Source: Bartonella henselae str. Houston-1
GTDB lineage: Bacteria; Pseudomonadota; Alphaproteobacteria; Rhizobiales; Rhizobiaceae
DNA: 64,000 bases
Assembly: GCF_000046705.1 (NCBI RefSeq)
Contig: NC_005956.1
Span: 1,585,001-1,649,000, forward strand
Direction of reading: 5' to 3'
Part shown: positions 18,371 through 64,000 of the stretch, piece by piece
How positions within the stretch are numbered: the first letter of the stretch is position 1
Layout: each line of letters opens with the position of its first letter
The notes under the pieces: model-generated
What the model was told of the DNA's origin: nothing
Databases searched by the model: none
Seen by the model: the letters and a program-made list of their open reading frames with translations, nothing else
Made by a program: the position numbers and the translations under genes

Positions 18371-18598
18371 AACCCCCAGGGCAGAACCCCCAGGGCAGAA
18401 CCCCCAGGGCAGAACCCCCAGGGCAGAACCCCCAGGGCAGAACCCCCAGGGCAGAACCCCCAGGGCAGAACCCCCAGGGCAGAACCCCCAGGGCAGAACC
18501 CCCAGGGCAGAACCCCCAGGGCAGAACCCCCAGGGCAGAACCCCCAGGGCAGAACCCCCAGGGCAGAACCCCCAGGGCAGAACCCCCAGGGCAGAACC
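18371..18598. repeat. perfect 14-bp minisatellite, about 16 copies
   Basis: The unit CCCCCAGGGCAGAA repeats head to tail without visible variation. The period is not a multiple of three, so every frame reads the same 14-residue cycle (GQNPQGRTPRAEPP on the plus strand). Apparent long frames here are artefacts. It separates the 88-codon gene from a gene-free stretch. Confidence 0.95.
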
Positions 18599-24285: not shown

Positions 24286-24990
24286 CAGAGCACCAACACC
24301 AGCCACCAACATCAGCCACCAACATCAGCCACCAACACCAGCCGCCAACATCAGCCGCCAACATCAGCCGCCAACATCAGCCACCAACATCAGCCACCAA
24401 CATCAGCCGCCAACACCAGCTACCAACACCAGCTACCAACACCAGCTACCAACACCAGCCACCAACACAGCCACCAACATCAGCCACCAACACCAGCCAC
24501 CAATACCAGTTACCAACACCAGCTACCAACACCAGCTACCAACACCAGCTACCAACACCAGCTACCAACACCAGCTACCAACACCAGCTACCAACACCAG
24601 CTACCAACATCAGCCACCAACATCAGCCACCAACACCAGCCACCAACATCAGCTACCAACATCAGCCACCAACACCAGCCGCCAACACCAGCCGCCAACA
24701 CCAGCCGCCAACACCAGCCGCCAACATCAGCCACCAACACCAGCCGCCAACATCAGCCGCCAACATCAGCCGCCAACATCAGCCGCCAACACCAGCCACC
24801 AACACCAGCCACCAACATCAGCCACCAACATCAGCCACCAACACCAGCCGCCAACATCAGCCACCAACACCAGCCGCCAACATCAGCCACCAACACCAGC
24901 TACCAACACCAGCTACCAACACCAGCCACCAGCATCAGCTACCAACACCAGCCACCAGCATCAGCCACCAACATCAGCCGCCAGTACCAA
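24286..24990. repeat. 13-bp minisatellite, about 54 copies
   Basis: The unit is ACCAACAYCAGCY with C/T variants (CAC or CAT; GCCACC, GCCGCC or GCTACC). One 12-bp unit near 24466 shifts phase. Because 13 is not a multiple of three, long plus-strand frames through it (Thr/Gln/Pro/His/Ser-rich) are artefacts. It fills the gap between two particle genes that are normally close together. Confidence 0.95.
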
Positions 24991-27260: not shown

Positions 27261-27584
27261 GTTAACACTCCACATTTTTCCTTTTCAGAGAGTGAATTTG
27301 TTATTAAGTGTTTTTATATTATTTTTATTGATGATCTTTGCCTCCCCCTTTGAACGATCTTCTCATTGCATAAACACCCTCAAGCTCCTATAGATCTGTC
27401 TCAAAAGTTTCTAGACAGACGTCTTAAAAGCCCCGGCCCATATCGGCTCCAAGCTCTCCACACAGTCATCTCACCCACTGCGCATCTGCTTCAACCCCCA
27501 CGCAACAGCCTTACCCGCCACACTGCCACTTCAATCCTCCACGCATCTGCTTCGAGAGTTTCCCCACCATACGTTCATGCTTTA

Positions 27585-40460: not shown

Positions 40461-41085
40461 CCCCAGCCACCCCTCACTCTCCACCCCTCACTCTCCACCT
40501 CTCACCCTCCACCTCTCACCCTCCACCTCTCACCCTCCACCTCTCACCCTCCACCTCTCACCCTCCACCTCTCACCCTCCACCTCTCACCCTCCACCTCT
40601 CACCCTCCACCTCTCACCCTCCACCTCTCACCCTCCACCTCTCACCCTCCACCTCTCACCCTCCATCTCTCATCCTCCACCTCTCATCCTCCATCTCTCA
40701 TCCTCCGCCTTTCACTCTCCACCTCTCACTCTCCACCTCTCACCCTCCACCTCTCATCCTCCATCTCTCATCCTCCGCCTTTCACTCTCCACCCCTCACT
40801 CTCCACCCCTCACTCTCCACCCCTCACTCTCCACCCCTCACTCTCCATCTCTCATCCTCCACCTCTCATCCTCCACCCCTCACTCTCCACCTCTCACCCT
40901 CCACCCCTCACTCTCCATCTCTCATCCTCCACCCCTCATTCTCCACCCCTCATTCTCCATCCCTCACTCTTCATCTCTCATCCTCCACCTCTCATCCTCC
41001 ACCCCTCATTCTCCATCCCTCACTCTTCATCTCTCATCCTCCACCTCTCATCCTCCACCCCTCATTCTCCAGCGATCACTCCCTC
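40461..41085. repeat. 14-bp minisatellite, about 44 copies
   Basis: The unit is CCACCTCTCACCCT with variants (CTCATCCTCCATCT, CCCTCACTCTCCAC). It ends at CCAGCGATCACTCCCTCATT, about 85 bp before a Brt-like RNA. The same consensus, the same end and the same RNA/HTH unit recur at 46.4-47.6 kb. A frame of 324 codons through it is an artefact. Confidence 0.95.
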
Positions 41086-46410: not shown

Positions 46411-46950
46411 CTTTCACCCTCCATCTCTCATCCTCCATCTTTCACCCTCCACCCCTCATTCTCCACCCCTCATTCTCCACCTCTCATCCTCCATCTCTCA
46501 TCCTCCATCTCTCATCCTCCATCTCTCATCCTCCATCTCTCATCCTCCATCTCTCATCCTCCATCTCTCATCCTCCATCTCTCATCCTCCGCCTTTCACT
46601 CTCCACCCCTCACTCTCCACCCCTCACTCTCCACCCCTCATTCTCCACCCCTCATTCTCCACCTCTCATCCTCCATCTCTCATCCTCCATCTCTCATCCT
46701 CCATCTCTCATCCTCCATCTCTCATCCTCCATCTCTCATCCTCCATCTCTCATCCTCCATCTCTCATCCTCCATCTCTCATCCTCCATCTCTCATCCTCC
46801 ATCTCTCATCCTCCATCTCTCATCCTCCATCTCTCATCCTCCATCTCTCATCCTCCATCTCTCACTCTCCACCTCTCACTCTCCACCTCTCACTCTCCAC
46901 CTCTCATCCTCCGCTTCTCATCCTCCACCCCTCATCCTCCAGCGATCACT
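46411..46950. repeat. 14-bp minisatellite, about 38 copies
   Basis: Same consensus as at 40.5 kb (CTCATCCTCCATCT majority unit) and the same right end, followed by an identical 85-bp spacer and a second Brt-like RNA. The internal order of variants differs from the first array, so the arrays expanded independently after duplication. Confidence 0.95.
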
Positions 46951-57012: not shown

Positions 57013-57221
57013 TTGGTCGGTTACGCAACGATCAATAAGGGAAGTAAAGCCCTAAGTTCTAAAAAAATTAGCTCATTATGTGAGCTTTCCCGGATTCCGG
57101 GAGTTTTTGCCATGTCCAAGTGCTTCTCAGCACTAAAAGCAAAAAGCTGATTAGAACTCAGTACTTTACTACTCCCGGAATACTAATGCGAGGGCGCTCG
57201 CACCCGGTGGGGGACTTTAAA
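57013..57221 (+). ncRNA. Brt-like structured RNA leader, copy 3
   Basis: Same order of hairpins as copy 1 but diverged. The first stem is TTGGTCG/CGATCAA, the third GCTCA/TGAGC instead of CCCAC/GTGGG (compensatory changes), and the fourth TCCCGGATTCCGGGA. The competing pair ATTCCGGGAG/CTCCCGGAAT is unchanged. The leader ends in a GGGGGA ribosome site for the GTG start at 57222. Confidence 0.8.
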
Positions 57222-57578
57222 GTGCAAAACAAAAATCCGCATTTTAATGATATTTCTGTAGGCAAGAGAATTCGTTATAGAAGAAAGATGCTAGGACTTT
57301 CTCAAAAACAGTTAGGCCACTCCTTAGGAGTCACTTTCCAACAAATTCAGAAATATGAAAAAGGAATAAATCGTGTAGGAGCAGGACGTTTACAGGAAAT
57401 TGCCACTCTATTGGATGTTTCTATTTCCTTTTTTTATGCGGATATTTCAACAAAAGAACATGTTTCATACCCTCGTAATAAAGGAATATCGAACAAAGAA
57501 GAAGATTTCCTTTTAAAAAGTTTTAGAGAACTTAAACCGAAAAAACAGAAGGCAATTTTGTGCTTGCTTTCCGATTAA
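57222..57578 (+). CDS. XRE-family HTH regulator (Brt-associated)
   Basis: The 118-residue protein begins at a GTG (QNKNPHFNDISVGKRIRYRR) with an HTH (LSQKQLGHSLGVTFQQIQKY) and the conserved C-terminus LLKSFRELKPKKQKAILCLL. It is about 97% identical to the copy at 58034. The GTG sits 8 bp behind GGGGGA. An upstream ATG at 57120 would lie inside the RNA leader and is rejected. Confidence 0.85.
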   Translation: MQNKNPHFNDISVGKRIRYRRKMLGLSQKQLGHSLGVTFQQIQKYEKGINRVGAGRLQEIATLLDVSISFFYADISTKEHVSYPRNKGISNKEEDFLLKSFRELKPKKQKAILCLLSD

Positions 57579-57824: not shown

Positions 57825-58033
57825 TTGGTCGATTACGCAACGATCAATAAGAGAAGTAAAACCCTAAATTCTAAAAAATTAGCTTATTATGTGAGCTTTC
57901 CTGGAATTCCGGGAGTTTTTGCTATGTCCAGGTGCTTCTTAGCACTAAAAGCAAAAAGCTGATTCGGATTCAGTATTTTCAACCTCCCGGAATACCAATG
58001 CGAGGGCGCTCGCACCCGGTGGGGGACTTTAAA
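57825..58033 (+). ncRNA. Brt-like structured RNA leader, copy 4
   Basis: Hairpin set as in copy 3. The fourth stem is TCCTGGAATTCCGGGA, where the T keeps pairing with G. The long-range ATTCCGGGAG/CTCCCGGAAT pair is unchanged. The unit with its HTH gene is a tandem duplicate of copy 3 with a period of 812 bp. Confidence 0.8.
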
Positions 58034-58390
58034 GTGCAAAACAAAAATCCGCATTTTAATGACATTTCTGTAGGCAAGAGAATTCGTTATAGAAGAAAGA
58101 TGCTAGGACTTTCTCAAAAACAGTTAGGCCACTCCTTAGGAGTCACTTTCCAACAAATTCAGAAATATGAAAAAGGAATAAATCGTGTAGGAGCAGGACG
58201 TTTACAGGAAATTGCCACTCTATTGGATGTTTCTATTTCCTTTTTTTATGCGGATATTTCAAAAAAGGAACATGTTTCATACCCTCGTGATAAAGGAATA
58301 TCGAACAAAGAAGAAGATTTCCTTTTGAAAAGTTTTAGAGAACTTAAACCGAAAAAACAGAAGGCAATTTTGTGCTTGCTTTCCGATTAA
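58034..58390 (+). CDS. XRE-family HTH regulator (Brt-associated), tandem paralogue
   Basis: The 118-residue protein starts at GTG 58034 and differs from the 57222 product at only a few residues (for example ISKKEHVSYPRDKGISNKEE against ISTKEHVSYPRNKGISNKEE). All HTH residues are kept. It follows RNA copy 4. Confidence 0.85.
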   Translation: MQNKNPHFNDISVGKRIRYRRKMLGLSQKQLGHSLGVTFQQIQKYEKGINRVGAGRLQEIATLLDVSISFFYADISKKEHVSYPRDKGISNKEEDFLLKSFRELKPKKQKAILCLLSD

Positions 58391-58671
58391 AATTTTTAAA
58401 ATCCGCTTTTTATAATAAGAAACTCTCCACCTTTCAAATTCTCATATCTGCTCCCATATACGTTCAGATGCAGCTTCTACTGCTGCAACCAATGAATAAG
58501 CATTTCTCCTCTTGTATCTCCGGTACGATGTATCTCCGGTACGATGTATCTTCGCTACGATGTCTCTCTGGTACGATGTCTCTGCGGTCTTTAGAGCATT
58601 TTCGAAAACAAAGACTGTTTAAATTTTCATTGCCAAAATTCTGAAATTGCTCTATGGATGGGTCTGTGATT

Positions 58672-58887
58672 TTGATCGTCTACGCAACGATCAATAGGGA
58701 TCTAAAAACCCGAAAACTCGATACATAAAAATCGATCCCACTGATGTGGGTATCCCGGAATTCCGGGAGATTTTGCTATGTCCAGGTGCTTCTTAGCACT
58801 AAAAGCAAAATGCTGATTTAGGTTCAGTATTTTCAACCTCCCGGAATACCAATGCGAGGGCGCTCGCACCCGGTGGGGGACTTTAAA
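58672..58887 (+). ncRNA. Brt-like structured RNA leader, copy 5
   Basis: The first hairpin is TTGATCG/CGATCAA, a full A-T replacement of the G-C pair in copy 1 (TTGGTCG/CGACCAA). The remaining hairpins and the competing ATTCCGGGAG/CTCCCGGAAT pair are intact, although the downstream HTH gene is broken. Confidence 0.8.
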
Positions 58888-59244
58888 GTGCAAAACAAAA
58901 ATCCGCATTTTAATGATATTTCTGTAGGCAAGAGAATTCGTTATAGAAGAAAGATGCTAGGACTTTCTTAAAAACAGTTAGGCCACTCCTTAGGAGTCAC
59001 TTTCCAACAAATTCAGAAATATGAAAAAGGAATAAATCGTGTAGGAGCAGGACGTTTACAGGAAATTGCCACTCTATTGGATGTTTCTATTTCCTTTTTT
59101 TATGCGGATATTTCAAAAAAGGAACATGTTTCATACCCTCGTGATAAAGGAATATCGAACAAAGAAGAAGATTTCCTTTTGAAAAGTTTTAGAGAACTTA
59201 AACCGAAAAAACAGAAGGCAATTTTGTGCTTGCTTTCCGATTAA
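58888..59244 (+). pseudogene. Brt-associated HTH gene with premature stop
   Basis: Collinear with the 58034 gene over 118 codons, but CAA at codon 28 (within LSQKQLG of the HTH) has become TAA at 58969. The rest is uninterrupted, so the mutation is recent. Confidence 0.85.
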
Positions 59245-59971
59245 AATTTTTAAAATCCGCTTTTTATAATAAGAAACTCTCCACCTTTCAAATTTTTTGG
59301 TCCGCTCCAAAATACGTGCAAGTGCAGCTTCTACTTCTGTAGCCAAAATTTGAATGAGCATTTTTCTCCATTCGTCAAAACACCCAAACAACAGCAAATA
59401 CTTGAGATGTAAGCTTTAATGTGCCTCATATCATTGGTTATGATGGACAATATTTTACGGCACGAAGGATAAATAGAGACGACTGTGTGCCATTCAAAAG
59501 TTTGTTTCATAAATCTTTAACAACCTTACCCTTACGATACAGTTGCATAACGATATTAACCCTTAAAGCTTCAAATATAAAAGAAAGTCCACTCTTAGGT
59601 CAGGCTCGCACAAAAGAGCGCACATTATACAATTGACTCTTAAATGGAATAGATTCAACTGCGTGTTTAATAAGCAATGTAAGACTTCTTAAAGACTACA
59701 ATCTTCTCTCACCCTACTTCTTTTAATTTCCAATAAGAGGTTACATATGCTGTGTTTTTTAGCCAAGGATCATGCTATGGATGAGACTTTTATCAATGCA
59801 TTCTAAGTATTCACTCTTTGATTTCCATTTTGAAAAAATAATGGCAAAGAAAGTATAAGAAAAGAATTGCATGCAAGGTCATTTTCTCTCTAGCCGAAGA
59901 TTTCAAACTGTTTTATAATGAAAATGGTGTTCTGCGCCTCTCGACAGGAAATAACATATTCCTGAGACCTT
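59245..59971. other. gene-free stretch
   Basis: No gene recognised. A TATAAT sequence at 59914-59919, about 50 bp before the structured RNA described next, may be its -10 element, though no good -35 box is seen. Confidence 0.4.
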
Positions 59972-60990
59972 AGTGATTTCCAAGGGAGCTGTCCCTGATT
60001 AAGCTCGTGGGCTTTTTCATATGGCGCCCACCTATTTATATAGGTTCCCAGGGATCAACTTTTTCCATCGGTTGTTGTGGATCACCACTTGCTTGCACAA
60101 ATGCAACAAGATGCTATCATCCTTTGAAGCTACCCTCGATTAAGCTCGTGGGCTTTTTCATAGGGCGCCCACCTATTTATATAGGTTCCCAGGGATCAAC
60201 TTTTCCCATCGGTTGTTGTGGATCACCACTTGCTTGCACAAATACAACAAGATGCTATCATCCTTTGAAGCTACCCTCGATTAAGCTCGTGGGCTTTTTC
60301 ATAGGGCGCCCACCTATTTATATAGGTTCCCAGGGATCAACTTTTTCCATCGGTTGTTGTGGATCACCACTTGCTTGCACAAATACAACAAGATGCTATC
60401 ATCCTTTGAAGCTACCCTCGATTAAGCTCGTGGGCTTTTTCATAGGGCGCCCACCTATTTATATAGGTTCCCAGGGATCAATTTTTTCCATCGGTCGTTG
60501 TGGATCACCACTTGCTTGCACAAATACAGCAAGATGCTATCATCCTTTGAAGCTACCCTCGATTAAGCTCGTGGGCTTTTTCATAGAGCACCCACCTATT
60601 TACATAGGTTCCCAGGGATCAACTTTTTCCATCGGTTGTTGTGGATCACCACTTGCTTACACAAATGCAGCAAGATGCTATCATCCTTTGAAGCTACCCT
60701 CGATTAAGCTCGTGGGCTTTTTCATAGGGCGCCCACCTATTTATATAGGTTCCCAGGGATCAACTTTTTCCATCGGTTGTTGTGGATCACCACTTGCTTG
60801 CACAAATACAACAAGATGCTATCATCCTTTGAAGCTACCCTCGATTAAGCTCGTGGGCTTTTTCATAGGGCGCCCACCTATTTATATAGGTTCCCAGGGA
60901 TCAACTTTTTCCATCGGTTGTTGTGGATCACCACTTGCTTGCACAAATACAGCAAGATGCTATCATCCTTTTGGTGGGGAAAAAATCACT
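59972..60990 (+). ncRNA. ssrS: putative 6S-type RNA gene with internal 7-fold expansion
   Basis: AGTGATTT at 59972-59979 pairs perfectly with AAATCACT at 60983-60990, and CCAAGG/CCTTTTGG inside extends the closing stem. If one 141-bp unit replaced the seven, the RNA would be about 170-180 nt, the size of 6S RNA with its closing stem. Each unit contains hairpins GTGGGC/GCCCAC, ACCTAT/ATAGGT and CAAC/GTTG. The position directly upstream of fau is the conserved place of ssrS in proteobacteria. The 6S identity rests on structure and synteny, not on a sequence match. Confidence 0.5.
60001..60987 (+). repeat. seven tandem 141-bp units
   Basis: Units start at 60001, 60142, 60283, 60424, 60565, 60706 and 60847 (AAGCTCGTGGGC). 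Differences between units are few. The last unit loses the repeat sequence at about 60970. 141 is a multiple of three, so a 335-codon frame (unit of 47 residues) runs through, but it has no ribosome site or protein-like composition and is taken as an artefact. Confidence 0.97.
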
Positions 60991-61101
60991 CTGATCTTTT
61001 TAAAAGATTTGTGAGAGCTCTCCTTAGAGTAGCTGATTTATTGTACCTTTTCACCCTTTATGGAATGCTTTATCACCCTTTATGAAATGATTGACGAAAG
61101 A

Positions 61102-61710
61102 ATGACCCAAGACACAAAAACCACGCAATCTCTCTCATCGGTTCGCGCACAGTTACGCAAGAGCGGCTTATCCAAACGCGATGCACTCTCAGCACAAGAG
61201 CGCGATGTTTTTTCGCAGCAAGCCTGTTCTCATCTAATGCATGTCCTTGAACAAAGAGGGGAAGATTTTTCCCGTATGATTCTAGCGGGTTATTGGCCAA
61301 TCAAATCAGAAATCGACCCACGTCCTTTATTCGATTGCATAAGAGTACGTGGTGGAAATTTAGCATTACCGGCAGTGCTTGATTCCACGACCATGGTTTT
61401 TCGTACATTTTCACAAAGCACAGTTTTAGAACCTATGCACTTTGGCACATTGGGTCCTGGTGCAGAAAATACAGTTGTTATTCCAAGCGTTATTCTTGTG
61501 CCTCTTTCAGCGTTTGATAGCCAATGTCACCGTCTTGGTTATGGAGGAGGCTACTATGATCGCGCTGTTGAAATTCTTCAAAAACAAGGGCATCAAATTG
61601 CTCTATTGGGCTTAGGCTTTTCATGTCAGGAAGTTTCCTCCATTCCCCATACAGAACATGATCTAATAGTAGAGGGAATTTTTACAGAAAAAGGTTTCTT
61701 AAAACGTTAA
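61102..61710 (+). CDS. fau: 5-formyltetrahydrofolate cyclo-ligase
   Basis: The protein of about 202 residues has the family motifs ILAGYWPIKSEIDPRPLFDC, VIPSVILVPLSAFDSQCHRL and GYGGGYYDRAVE. It converts 5-formyl-THF to 5,10-methenyl-THF with ATP. The ATG at 61102 fits the family start better than ATGs at 61060 and 61087. It is followed within 3 bp by the phosphoesterase gene and preceded by the putative 6S RNA. Confidence 0.93.
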   Translation: MTQDTKTTQSLSSVRAQLRKSGLSKRDALSAQERDVFSQQACSHLMHVLEQRGEDFSRMILAGYWPIKSEIDPRPLFDCIRVRGGNLALPAVLDSTTMVFRTFSQSTVLEPMHFGTLGPGAENTVVIPSVILVPLSAFDSQCHRLGYGGGYYDRAVEILQKQGHQIALLGLGFSCQEVSSIPHTEHDLIVEGIFTEKGFLKR

Positions 61711-61713
61711 AAT

Positions 61714-62550
61714 ATGATTAAAACGCTCATGCGTTTTTTATTTTTAGGTGACATTGTTGGAGAAACGGGCTGTAACGCTGTTTTTGCAAAGCTTCCAGGG
61801 CTTGTTAAAAAATGGCAACTTGATTTTGTTGTTGTGAATGGCGAAAACGCTTCTGGTGGTTTTGGGATCACGCAAGAGACTTATCAAGATCTTTTAATGG
61901 CAGGTGCTGATGTTGTAACCACAGGGAATCATGCTTTTGCACGCAGAGAAATAATACGCTATATGCATGAGAATGATCGTTTTTTACGTCCAGCCAATTT
62001 TTCTAAGGAGACACCAGGAAGAGGTTCAGGCGTTTTTACAGCAAAGAACGGAGCACGTGTTCTTGTTGTGAATCTTTTAGGACGTATTTTTATGCCGTGC
62101 AAAGTTGATGATCCCTTTGAAATAGCTGAGAAGATTCTTCTGGCGTGCTCTTTGCAAGAACAAGCAGATGCGATTATTTTTGACTTTCACGCAGAAACGA
62201 CGAGTGAGAAGCAATGTTTTGCTCATTTTCTTGATGGTCGTGTCAGCGTTATTGTAGGCACCCATACGCACACTCCAACAGCTGATGCGCAAATTTTAGA
62301 AGGTGGCACTGCTTATTTATCGGATGCGGGAATGTGCGGAGATTATAATTCGTCTCTTGGAATGGATAAGGAAGAACCATTACACCGTTTTCTTTATAAG
62401 AAGAAGCAAGACCGTTATGAGCCAGCGCGAGGTCCTGCAACGCTTTGCGGTTTAGCGGTTGAGATTTCAGAGAAAACAGGTTTAGCAGAAAAGGTCTCAC
62501 CGGTACGGATTGGTCCGCATTTGAAACCTGCAAGTCCAGATTTTTGGTAA
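61714..62550 (+). CDS. YmdB-type metallophosphoesterase (TIGR00282)
   Basis: The protein of about 278 residues shows FLFLGDIVGETG, VVNGENASGGFG, TTGNHAFARRE, DFHAETTSEKQCF and VGTHTHTPTADAQIL, the metal-binding signature of the YmdB/TIGR00282 family; characterised members hydrolyse cyclic nucleotides or other phosphodiesters. ATG 61714 or 61729 may be the start; neither has a strong ribosome site. It is in an operon with fau, separated by 3 bp. Confidence 0.9.
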   Translation: MIKTLMRFLFLGDIVGETGCNAVFAKLPGLVKKWQLDFVVVNGENASGGFGITQETYQDLLMAGADVVTTGNHAFARREIIRYMHENDRFLRPANFSKETPGRGSGVFTAKNGARVLVVNLLGRIFMPCKVDDPFEIAEKILLACSLQEQADAIIFDFHAETTSEKQCFAHFLDGRVSVIVGTHTHTPTADAQILEGGTAYLSDAGMCGDYNSSLGMDKEEPLHRFLYKKKQDRYEPARGPATLCGLAVEISEKTGLAEKVSPVRIGPHLKPASPDFW

Positions 62551-64000
62551 CCCCCCCATTATTTCCATCACCCTCTTCGCCCCTTTTAAGGGTTCGGGGT
62601 TGTCCCTGTCCTGTGTAGTTTTTTCAAACTCTTTCCCCCTTTGACTAAACACTGCCCCTCGAAGAAATTATCCCTCAAAGAGCCCCCTTCATCCCCTTTC
62701 AGGGGTTTGGGATTATCCCCCTGTCTTAGTGCAGTTTCTTTAAGCTCTCTTCTTTGATTAAGCACTTTCCCTCGAAGAAGGTCGCTCTAATAAGCGTTTT
62801 CCCCAATAAGCGTGCTCCAGTGAGGCCTTCCCTTGAAGATGAGGCAGCCTTTTAAGCAAGCTTTTAAGCAAGGTTATTGCGGTGGATGATCATCCGTCAG
62901 ATTTCCACCTTTAAAAACGGTGTTCAAGAAAGAGAAACTCGAAAAGAAAGCTTCTTAAAAGGAGGGGCTCAGGAGTCTGCGTAAAAGGGGCTTTCTCACC
63001 TCCACAATATGTCTCATATGCCTTGAAAAGGTGGCTCCTCGTAAAAAGATTCTCTGAAGAAAAGTTCCAAAAGCTGCCTTCATCCCCATCACTCCCTTCA
63101 GGGGATCAAGGGTATATTTTTGTTCCAGTATAGTTTCTTCAAGCTCTCTGTCCTTTGACGAAACACTGCCCCTCGAAGGGGTGATCCTTCAAAAAACGTT
63201 GCCGCAAAGAAGCTATCTCTCAAGGAACTAAGTCTCCAAAGTCTCTTCACAAGGTAAGAAGAGACCCTAAAGCAAGAAAACACCCCAAGAAGTTTCATTT
63301 ACAGGATCTCAGCTTTCTCATACAAAGAAACTTCCTCGAAGATTTTTTTCTTGCAGATAATCGTAACTTGTCAGCAAATTTTATAGGAGTGTATTTTTTA
63401 AAGGTCTTTCAAACGAAATTTGAGAAGACTTTTTTTTAATCTTAAAAGACTTTCCGCAACCTTCTCTCCTTTTTTGCCATTAAATTCTAACTTTTGTAAT
63501 TTTAGGTCTTTTTTTGATTTTTTACTCTCTAAATCCAATTTGAGAAATAATTAAAAACAATGAATTACCACATATCTTTCATGCCAGCTTTTCCTCCTTA
63601 GTACAAAACGCCTTTAAAACCATAATGGGATGGGATACGGAAAATCCTCATCAAAAGAGCGCCCTTCAAAGGAAACACTCCTGAAAAGCTTCATTCCCCG
63701 AAATGCTCTGCTAGAAAGAATTTTTTTCCCAAGATTCTCCTTGAAGAGGTTGTTCAAAAAGCACAAATTCCGAAAGGAAATTTCTCCCAAAGACAAGGAG
63801 ACACAGAAAGAGATGCCCAAAAGCAAGAGAGCGCTGAAGAGAGTCCTTTTGAAAAAGCCTTTCTAAAGCCCCTATACTCGAAGGAGTTTTCGTTCCAATT
63901 CTCCAACAGAGGTAACAAAAAAACATTTCATAAAAAAACTGTCTAAAGAAGCACTCTTTTTGGCTGCTTCACCTTCAAAGGTTAGTCCTCTTTGAAGGAT
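62551..64000. other. gene-free stretch with diverged direct repeats
   Basis: A segment of about 120 bp (landmarks CTTCAAGCTCTCT and TGCCCCTCGAAG) occurs at about 62566-62680, 62690-62800 and 63080-63210. GAAGAAG/CTTC-rich sequence continues to the end. Short frames at 63614-63926 on both strands are composition artefacts. No gene was recognised. Confidence 0.6.

Follow-up and report, generated by a model that had tools for sequence, protein, structure and literature searches.

A single 6S RNA gene in Bartonella henselae Houston-1 whose 3′ half lies in a seven-copy tandem repeat

Bartonella henselae Houston-1 carries one complete 6S RNA gene (ssrS), and the 3′ half of this gene opens a tandem array that reaches toward fau. 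A 6S RNA needs two strands folded together, and here one 5′ arm faces seven 3′ halves. We consider it probable that this is one ordinary 6S gene with a lineage-specific tandem repeat which has captured its 3′ half, the array being near-neutral and most likely tolerated. Positions below are those of the window, the whole stretch of 64,000 nucleotides that was analyzed (contig NC_005956.1, 1,585,001 to 1,649,000, forward strand).

The 6S RNA gene and its repeated 3′ half

The sole Rfam family to reach its gathering score in the window is 6S RNA (RF00013), in keeping with the earlier note on this DNA, which had seen a 6S-type RNA at the site. In a cmscan of 58000-63000 the match occupies 59926-60087 of the forward strand (73.6 bits, E 9.7e-14, gathering score 46.4) and aligns over its full length, untruncated, with positions 1-187 of the model. 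It is the only RF00013 match in the genome (1,931,047 bp) at an E-value of 0.001, and the covariance search that the note had proposed thus gave a significant, complete 6S RNA here and none elsewhere. The closing stem, central bubble, and apical stem are all contained in this one RNA, with the closing stem formed by 59926 onward paired with the bases up to 60087 in both the cmscan alignment and the fold. The fold has an energy of −52.9 kcal/mol (z −3.15) and none of 200 shuffled sequences was equally stable. The 5′ end lies 46 bases upstream of 59972, the start given in the note, and the 3′ end falls within the first repeat unit. The 5′ half (59926-59992, forward strand), comprising the 5′ strand of the closing stem, the central bubble, and the lower apical stem, is unrepeated; no further 6S 5′ strand was found elsewhere in the genome at E 0.001 or better.

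A putative −10 box read from the sequence (TATAAT, 59914-59919, forward strand) sits 6 nt before the 6S 5′ end. Of 70 Bartonella loci, 32 have a TAYART motif no more than 20 nt ahead of the 6S start, and the motif is missing from all six inter-unit spacers of the array. The putative box is not among the five sites listed by a generic promoter scan of 59500-61800 (mean 4.5 in shuffled sequences); one of the five lies inside the array (60656-60684, unit 5, 9/12).

The seven 141-bp repeats reported earlier are confirmed by Tandem Repeats Finder, which places 7.0 tandem copies at 59993-60971 with 97% matches and no indels. The near-identical units stand head to tail, their starts spaced exactly 141 bp apart, and each combines the 6S 3′ half with a spacer of about 50 bp that includes the junction. 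In unit 1 (59997-60137, set by the repeat register) the 6S 3′ half makes up the first two thirds, up to 60087, followed by spacer (60088-60125) and the junction GAAGCTACCCTC (60126-60137). Unit matches and the register then give, all on the forward strand, unit 2 (60138-60278), an extra 6S 3′ half with its spacer, and units 3 (60279-60419), 4 (60420-60560), 5 (60561-60701), and 6 (60702-60842). Unit 7 (60843-60971), delimited also by the repeats finder, ends in the unique downstream flank rather than in the junction. Identity to unit 2 ranges from 95 to 99%, with unit 5 the lowest of the seven at 95%, and units 3 and 6 have the same sequence over the 129 nt compared. Unit position 26 is T in unit 1 (CATATGG, which is also present in all six relatives compared) and G in units 2-7.

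The earlier note pictured a 6S gene with its inner part multiplied inside a retained outer stem. Part of the gene has indeed been multiplied, but the block is the 3′ half with the spacer downstream of it. The flanking octamers thought to form the outer stem, AGTGATTT (59972-59979) and AAATCACT (60983-60990), exist and are complementary, however, they are not the 6S closing stem, AGTGATTT sitting on the 5′ side of the 6S core, and their pairing is unconserved. An exact downstream complement of the octamer was present in one of 49 Bartonella loci, that of this genome, and with G-U pairs allowed in five of 49, against 5.8 expected from shuffles; 49 of 70 loci could be parsed for this comparison (21 were dropped since the anchoring motif is variable), and the downstream stretches of this genome and of B. 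koehlerae were set by hand. One genome (G032) has a flank similar to AAATCACT, AAATCACTATAATC, downstream of a single-copy 6S without an array, which makes the flank the older of the two. The downstream stretch of B. senegalensis holds no complement of its own octamer.

Other repeats lie nearby. The window is full of arrays from 18371 to 56616, among them 14-bp repeats in 16.3 copies at 18371, 43 at 40467, and 38 at 46414, and a 13-bp repeat in 53 copies at 24291. Long-period arrays (periods 237-494) start at 27518, 29044, 37811, 38047, 53828, and 56029, which makes such arrays common in this 64-kb stretch. Two near-identical 152-aa helix-turn-helix proteins (HTH_3) are encoded in tandem at 57120-57578 and 57932-58390, and a 16-bp repeat array (58513-58588) stands behind the second; the two proteins resemble the Trp regulators described with the Brt RNAs (PMC5387305).

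Distribution of the repeat in Bartonella

We compared 71 Bartonella genomes, one per species, including this genome (G000) and its nearest named relatives, B. koehlerae C-29 (G023) and B. senegalensis OS02 (G038). The 6S 5′ arm has exactly one match in each of the 71. RF00013 has one match each in 70 and none in G058, in which the 5′ arm lies on contig C30 and C14 opens with the 3′ half; the model missed this 6S because it appears to be split between two contigs, probably by an assembly break. With the repeat unit as a DNA query we obtained seven matches here, two in B. koehlerae, two in G047, one in each of 67 genomes, and none in G063, so the copy-number comparison suggested in the note finds multiple unit matches in three of 71 genomes. 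When each 6S was compared with the DNA downstream of it in the 70 genomes other than G058, repeats were detected in the same three only. B. senegalensis, which has the closest 6S among the single-copy relatives (95.7%), holds one unit. Copy number therefore differs among close relatives, at seven here, two in B. koehlerae, and one in B. senegalensis, each value coming from one genome per species. A scan of viral_contigs gave no match. The G047 case (L062/L086) is a separate and shorter duplication of the 6S 3′ arm and a short flank, with 80% identity over 45 nt.

In B. henselae and B. koehlerae the junction falls at the same place, CCTTT being followed by GAAGCT here and by GGAGCT in B. koehlerae. 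This shared place suggests one event and, judged from the sequences, the first duplication probably predates the split of the two species. Unit 1 differs between them at three of 83 positions. Unit 2 of this genome differs at eight of 83 positions from the second unit of B. koehlerae and at five of 83 from its first, and the units within this genome, with one to four differences from unit 1, are closest to each other. For unit 2 to be closer to the first unit of B. koehlerae, either the copies must have been homogenized or the duplication must have occurred twice with an identical break. We count it against our preferred explanation that the unit sequences do not confirm homologous second units in the two species.

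Under that explanation, a segment that begins in the 6S apical stem and takes in about 50 bp of the ssrS-fau spacer would have been duplicated in tandem, probably in the common ancestor of B. henselae and B. koehlerae, and the henselae line would have reached seven copies, presumably via slippage or unequal recombination. Unit 1 would complete a functional 6S RNA that binds RNA polymerase as usual. Units 2-7 would belong both to the trailer at the 3′ end of the 6S transcript and to the fau leader and, having no 5′ strand, most likely serve no decoy function of their own.

Readings of the array

Several observations argue that the array is near-neutral. The 6S-derived part of the unit and the spacer have variable sites at equal frequency (seven of 91 and three of 38), and these sites show no bias toward unpaired positions. 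By the 6S fold of unit 1, four of the seven variable positions in the 6S-derived part are paired, as are 59 of its 91 positions overall; the earlier impression that unit differences fall mostly in loops is thus not borne out. The distance between 6S and fau also varies freely in the genus, and we detected no coding or structural constraint on the array in comparisons of the units and of the reading frames in the relatives. Some points pull the other way. In energy computations, any of the seven 3′ halves closes the 6S with the single 5′ arm almost equally well (−52.0 to −53.3 kcal/mol), an ability that neutrality should erode over time, although the copies are young (95 to 99% identical to unit 2). 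The separate duplication in G047 could also hint that extra 3′ arms are sometimes favored.

It is unlikely, but worth weighing, that the array tunes fau, with the 1 kb leader lowering the expression of the 5-formyltetrahydrofolate cyclo-ligase or, as a variable-number repeat, varying it. The downstream gene (61102-61710, forward strand; longest ORF from 61060) matches PF01812 at 98.5 bits, in line with the note, which had placed the site next to fau. Most of the 1014 nt that separate 6S from fau are taken up by the array, the remainder (60972-61101, forward strand), defined from the sequence and the relatives, being the stretch that contains AAATCACT. The gene lies downstream of 6S in 65 of 70 Bartonella loci, fau having not been placed in the other five. 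Across these 65 loci, however, the distance ranges from 64 to 1318 nt, which indicates that length at this site is free to change, and none of the three terminator-like sites found in 59500-61800 (1.9 expected) is inside the array. The spacing here is the second longest; the longest, 1318 nt, belongs to a locus without a 6S repeat (L019, G035).

It is improbable that the array acts as a copy-number-adjustable brake in cis. With one 5′ arm facing seven interchangeable 3′ arms, a downstream 3′ arm in a read-through RNA would displace the first and the distal refolding would lose the polymerase-binding core. Folding as 6S would be confined to RNA that terminates or is cleaved behind unit 1. The activity of 6S would then be tied to 3′ processing or termination, with the strength of the brake set by the copy number. 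In modeled transcripts of up to 242 nt the 5′ arm pairs with unit 1; from 254 nt this pairing is disturbed, at 266 nt it has partly returned, and by 302-303 nt the arm has passed to unit 2, the joint fold reaching −99.3 kcal/mol against −89.4 kcal/mol with the two kept apart. In a modeled RNA of 1095 nt the partner of the 5′ arm is unit 5, with 13.9 of the 16.8 expected pairs, and G047 shows the same preference for the later arm (−70.0 vs. −63.2). Yet energies calculated at equilibrium are unreliable for a 1 kb RNA, these values stand without a shuffle control, and folding during transcription should favor unit 1. B. koehlerae would gain no energy from the exchange (−87.3 vs. −87.2), although its expected pairs lean to unit 2 (11.1 vs. 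4.1), and 67 of the 71 Bartonella genomes have a single copy of the unit. Were such a brake to operate, strains with different repeat numbers would differ in the activity of a global transcription regulator.

The earlier note itself favored an expanded 6S RNA with several bubbles, or a precursor from which several 6S RNAs are cut, as a means of raising the dose of an RNA polymerase decoy. The family match and the derivation of the units from 6S speak for this proposal, which we nevertheless find very improbable. The 5′ strand exists once per genome, allowing at most one 6S bubble per transcript, and units 2-7 do not contain both strands of the closing stem and central bubble. The array without the 5′ arm (60088-61040) has one RF00013 match, cut off at its 5′ side, which at 15 bits (E 1.7) is well below the gathering score. 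The proposed outer stem is not conserved, and a lone unit is no more stable than its shuffles (z −0.92; 35 of 200 at least as stable). Without a 5′ strand, units 2-7 do not qualify as 6S RNAs and cannot raise the number of polymerase decoys. What persists of the proposal, in changed form, is that the lone 5′ arm can pair with the 3′ arm of a distal unit in the energy calculations on unprocessed RNA.

The ORF list also holds a 335-codon frame (60007-61014, forward strand) that stays open through all seven units and scores above the cut-off as a whole protein with the herpesvirus capsid family PF03327 (31.1 vs. 25 bits), however, no single stretch passes alone and we take the match as an effect of repetition. 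It is scarcely credible that the array encodes a repetitive protein, considering that one of six frames is open in the single 47-codon unit and remains so at any copy number, 141 being a multiple of three and the long frame a by-product of this, and that the codon comparison gives neither a conserved frame nor residue constraint: eight of nine variable codons alter the residue and both relatives examined close the frame, B. koehlerae after 44 codons and B. senegalensis after 52.

Comparison with known systems and significance

The locus is a full-length member of the 6S RNA/SsrS family adjoining fau (ygfA), the familiar arrangement, and differs from it in having six further copies of the 3′ half with its adjacent spacer but a single 5′ half. 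A likeness is seen in the Bacillus cereus group, whose ssrSA-ssrSB operon (PMC7726162) also places at least two 6S-derived sequences in tandem after a single upstream promoter. There each of the two copies is a 6S RNA gene, and the pair is co-transcribed and has been suggested to undergo processing, whereas here only the first is complete, and the genome holds one RF00013 match rather than two or more complete 6S genes. Within the genus, 6S RNA has been detected in B. bacilliformis (PMC7717549). The 6S RNA of S. meliloti is mentioned in PMC2245857, in the available part of which no Bartonella 6S appears. The terms "6S RNA" and "ssrS" are absent from the main text of the Houston-1 RNA-seq paper as far as that text was available (PMC5387305). 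The array is likewise undescribed in the titles and abstract openings, among the matches listed, on 6S RNA (Bartonella, tandem, fau/processing) and on B. henselae repeats and small RNAs.

Tandem arrays are already used for typing in this species. PMC2687025, PMC3428342, and PMC3706593 describe multiple-locus typing (MLVA) of B. henselae by five variable repeats, BHV-A to BHV-E, which resemble the 6S array in being tandem arrays and whose copy number varies among strains. The Houston profile is given as 14, 20, 10, 7, and 5 in PMC3706593, BHV-D thus having seven copies, the same number as the 6S array. BHV-D ranges from one to nine copies (PMC2687025) or, in another study, from one to 12 (PMC3428342). 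However, that study describes BHV-D as intragenic, unlike the 6S array, and its identity with the array is only a lead.

With one 6S strand present once and its partner seven times, Houston-1 offers a natural test of how the 6S 3′ end is formed, and the same genome also tests whether extra partner strands harm 6S folding. If the array is neutral, as we think probable, it would show instructively how an expanding repeat can take in half of a structured RNA gene. Nonetheless, this tandem repeat overlaps the gene of a global regulator, and differences in copy number between strains, should they exist, might have consequences.
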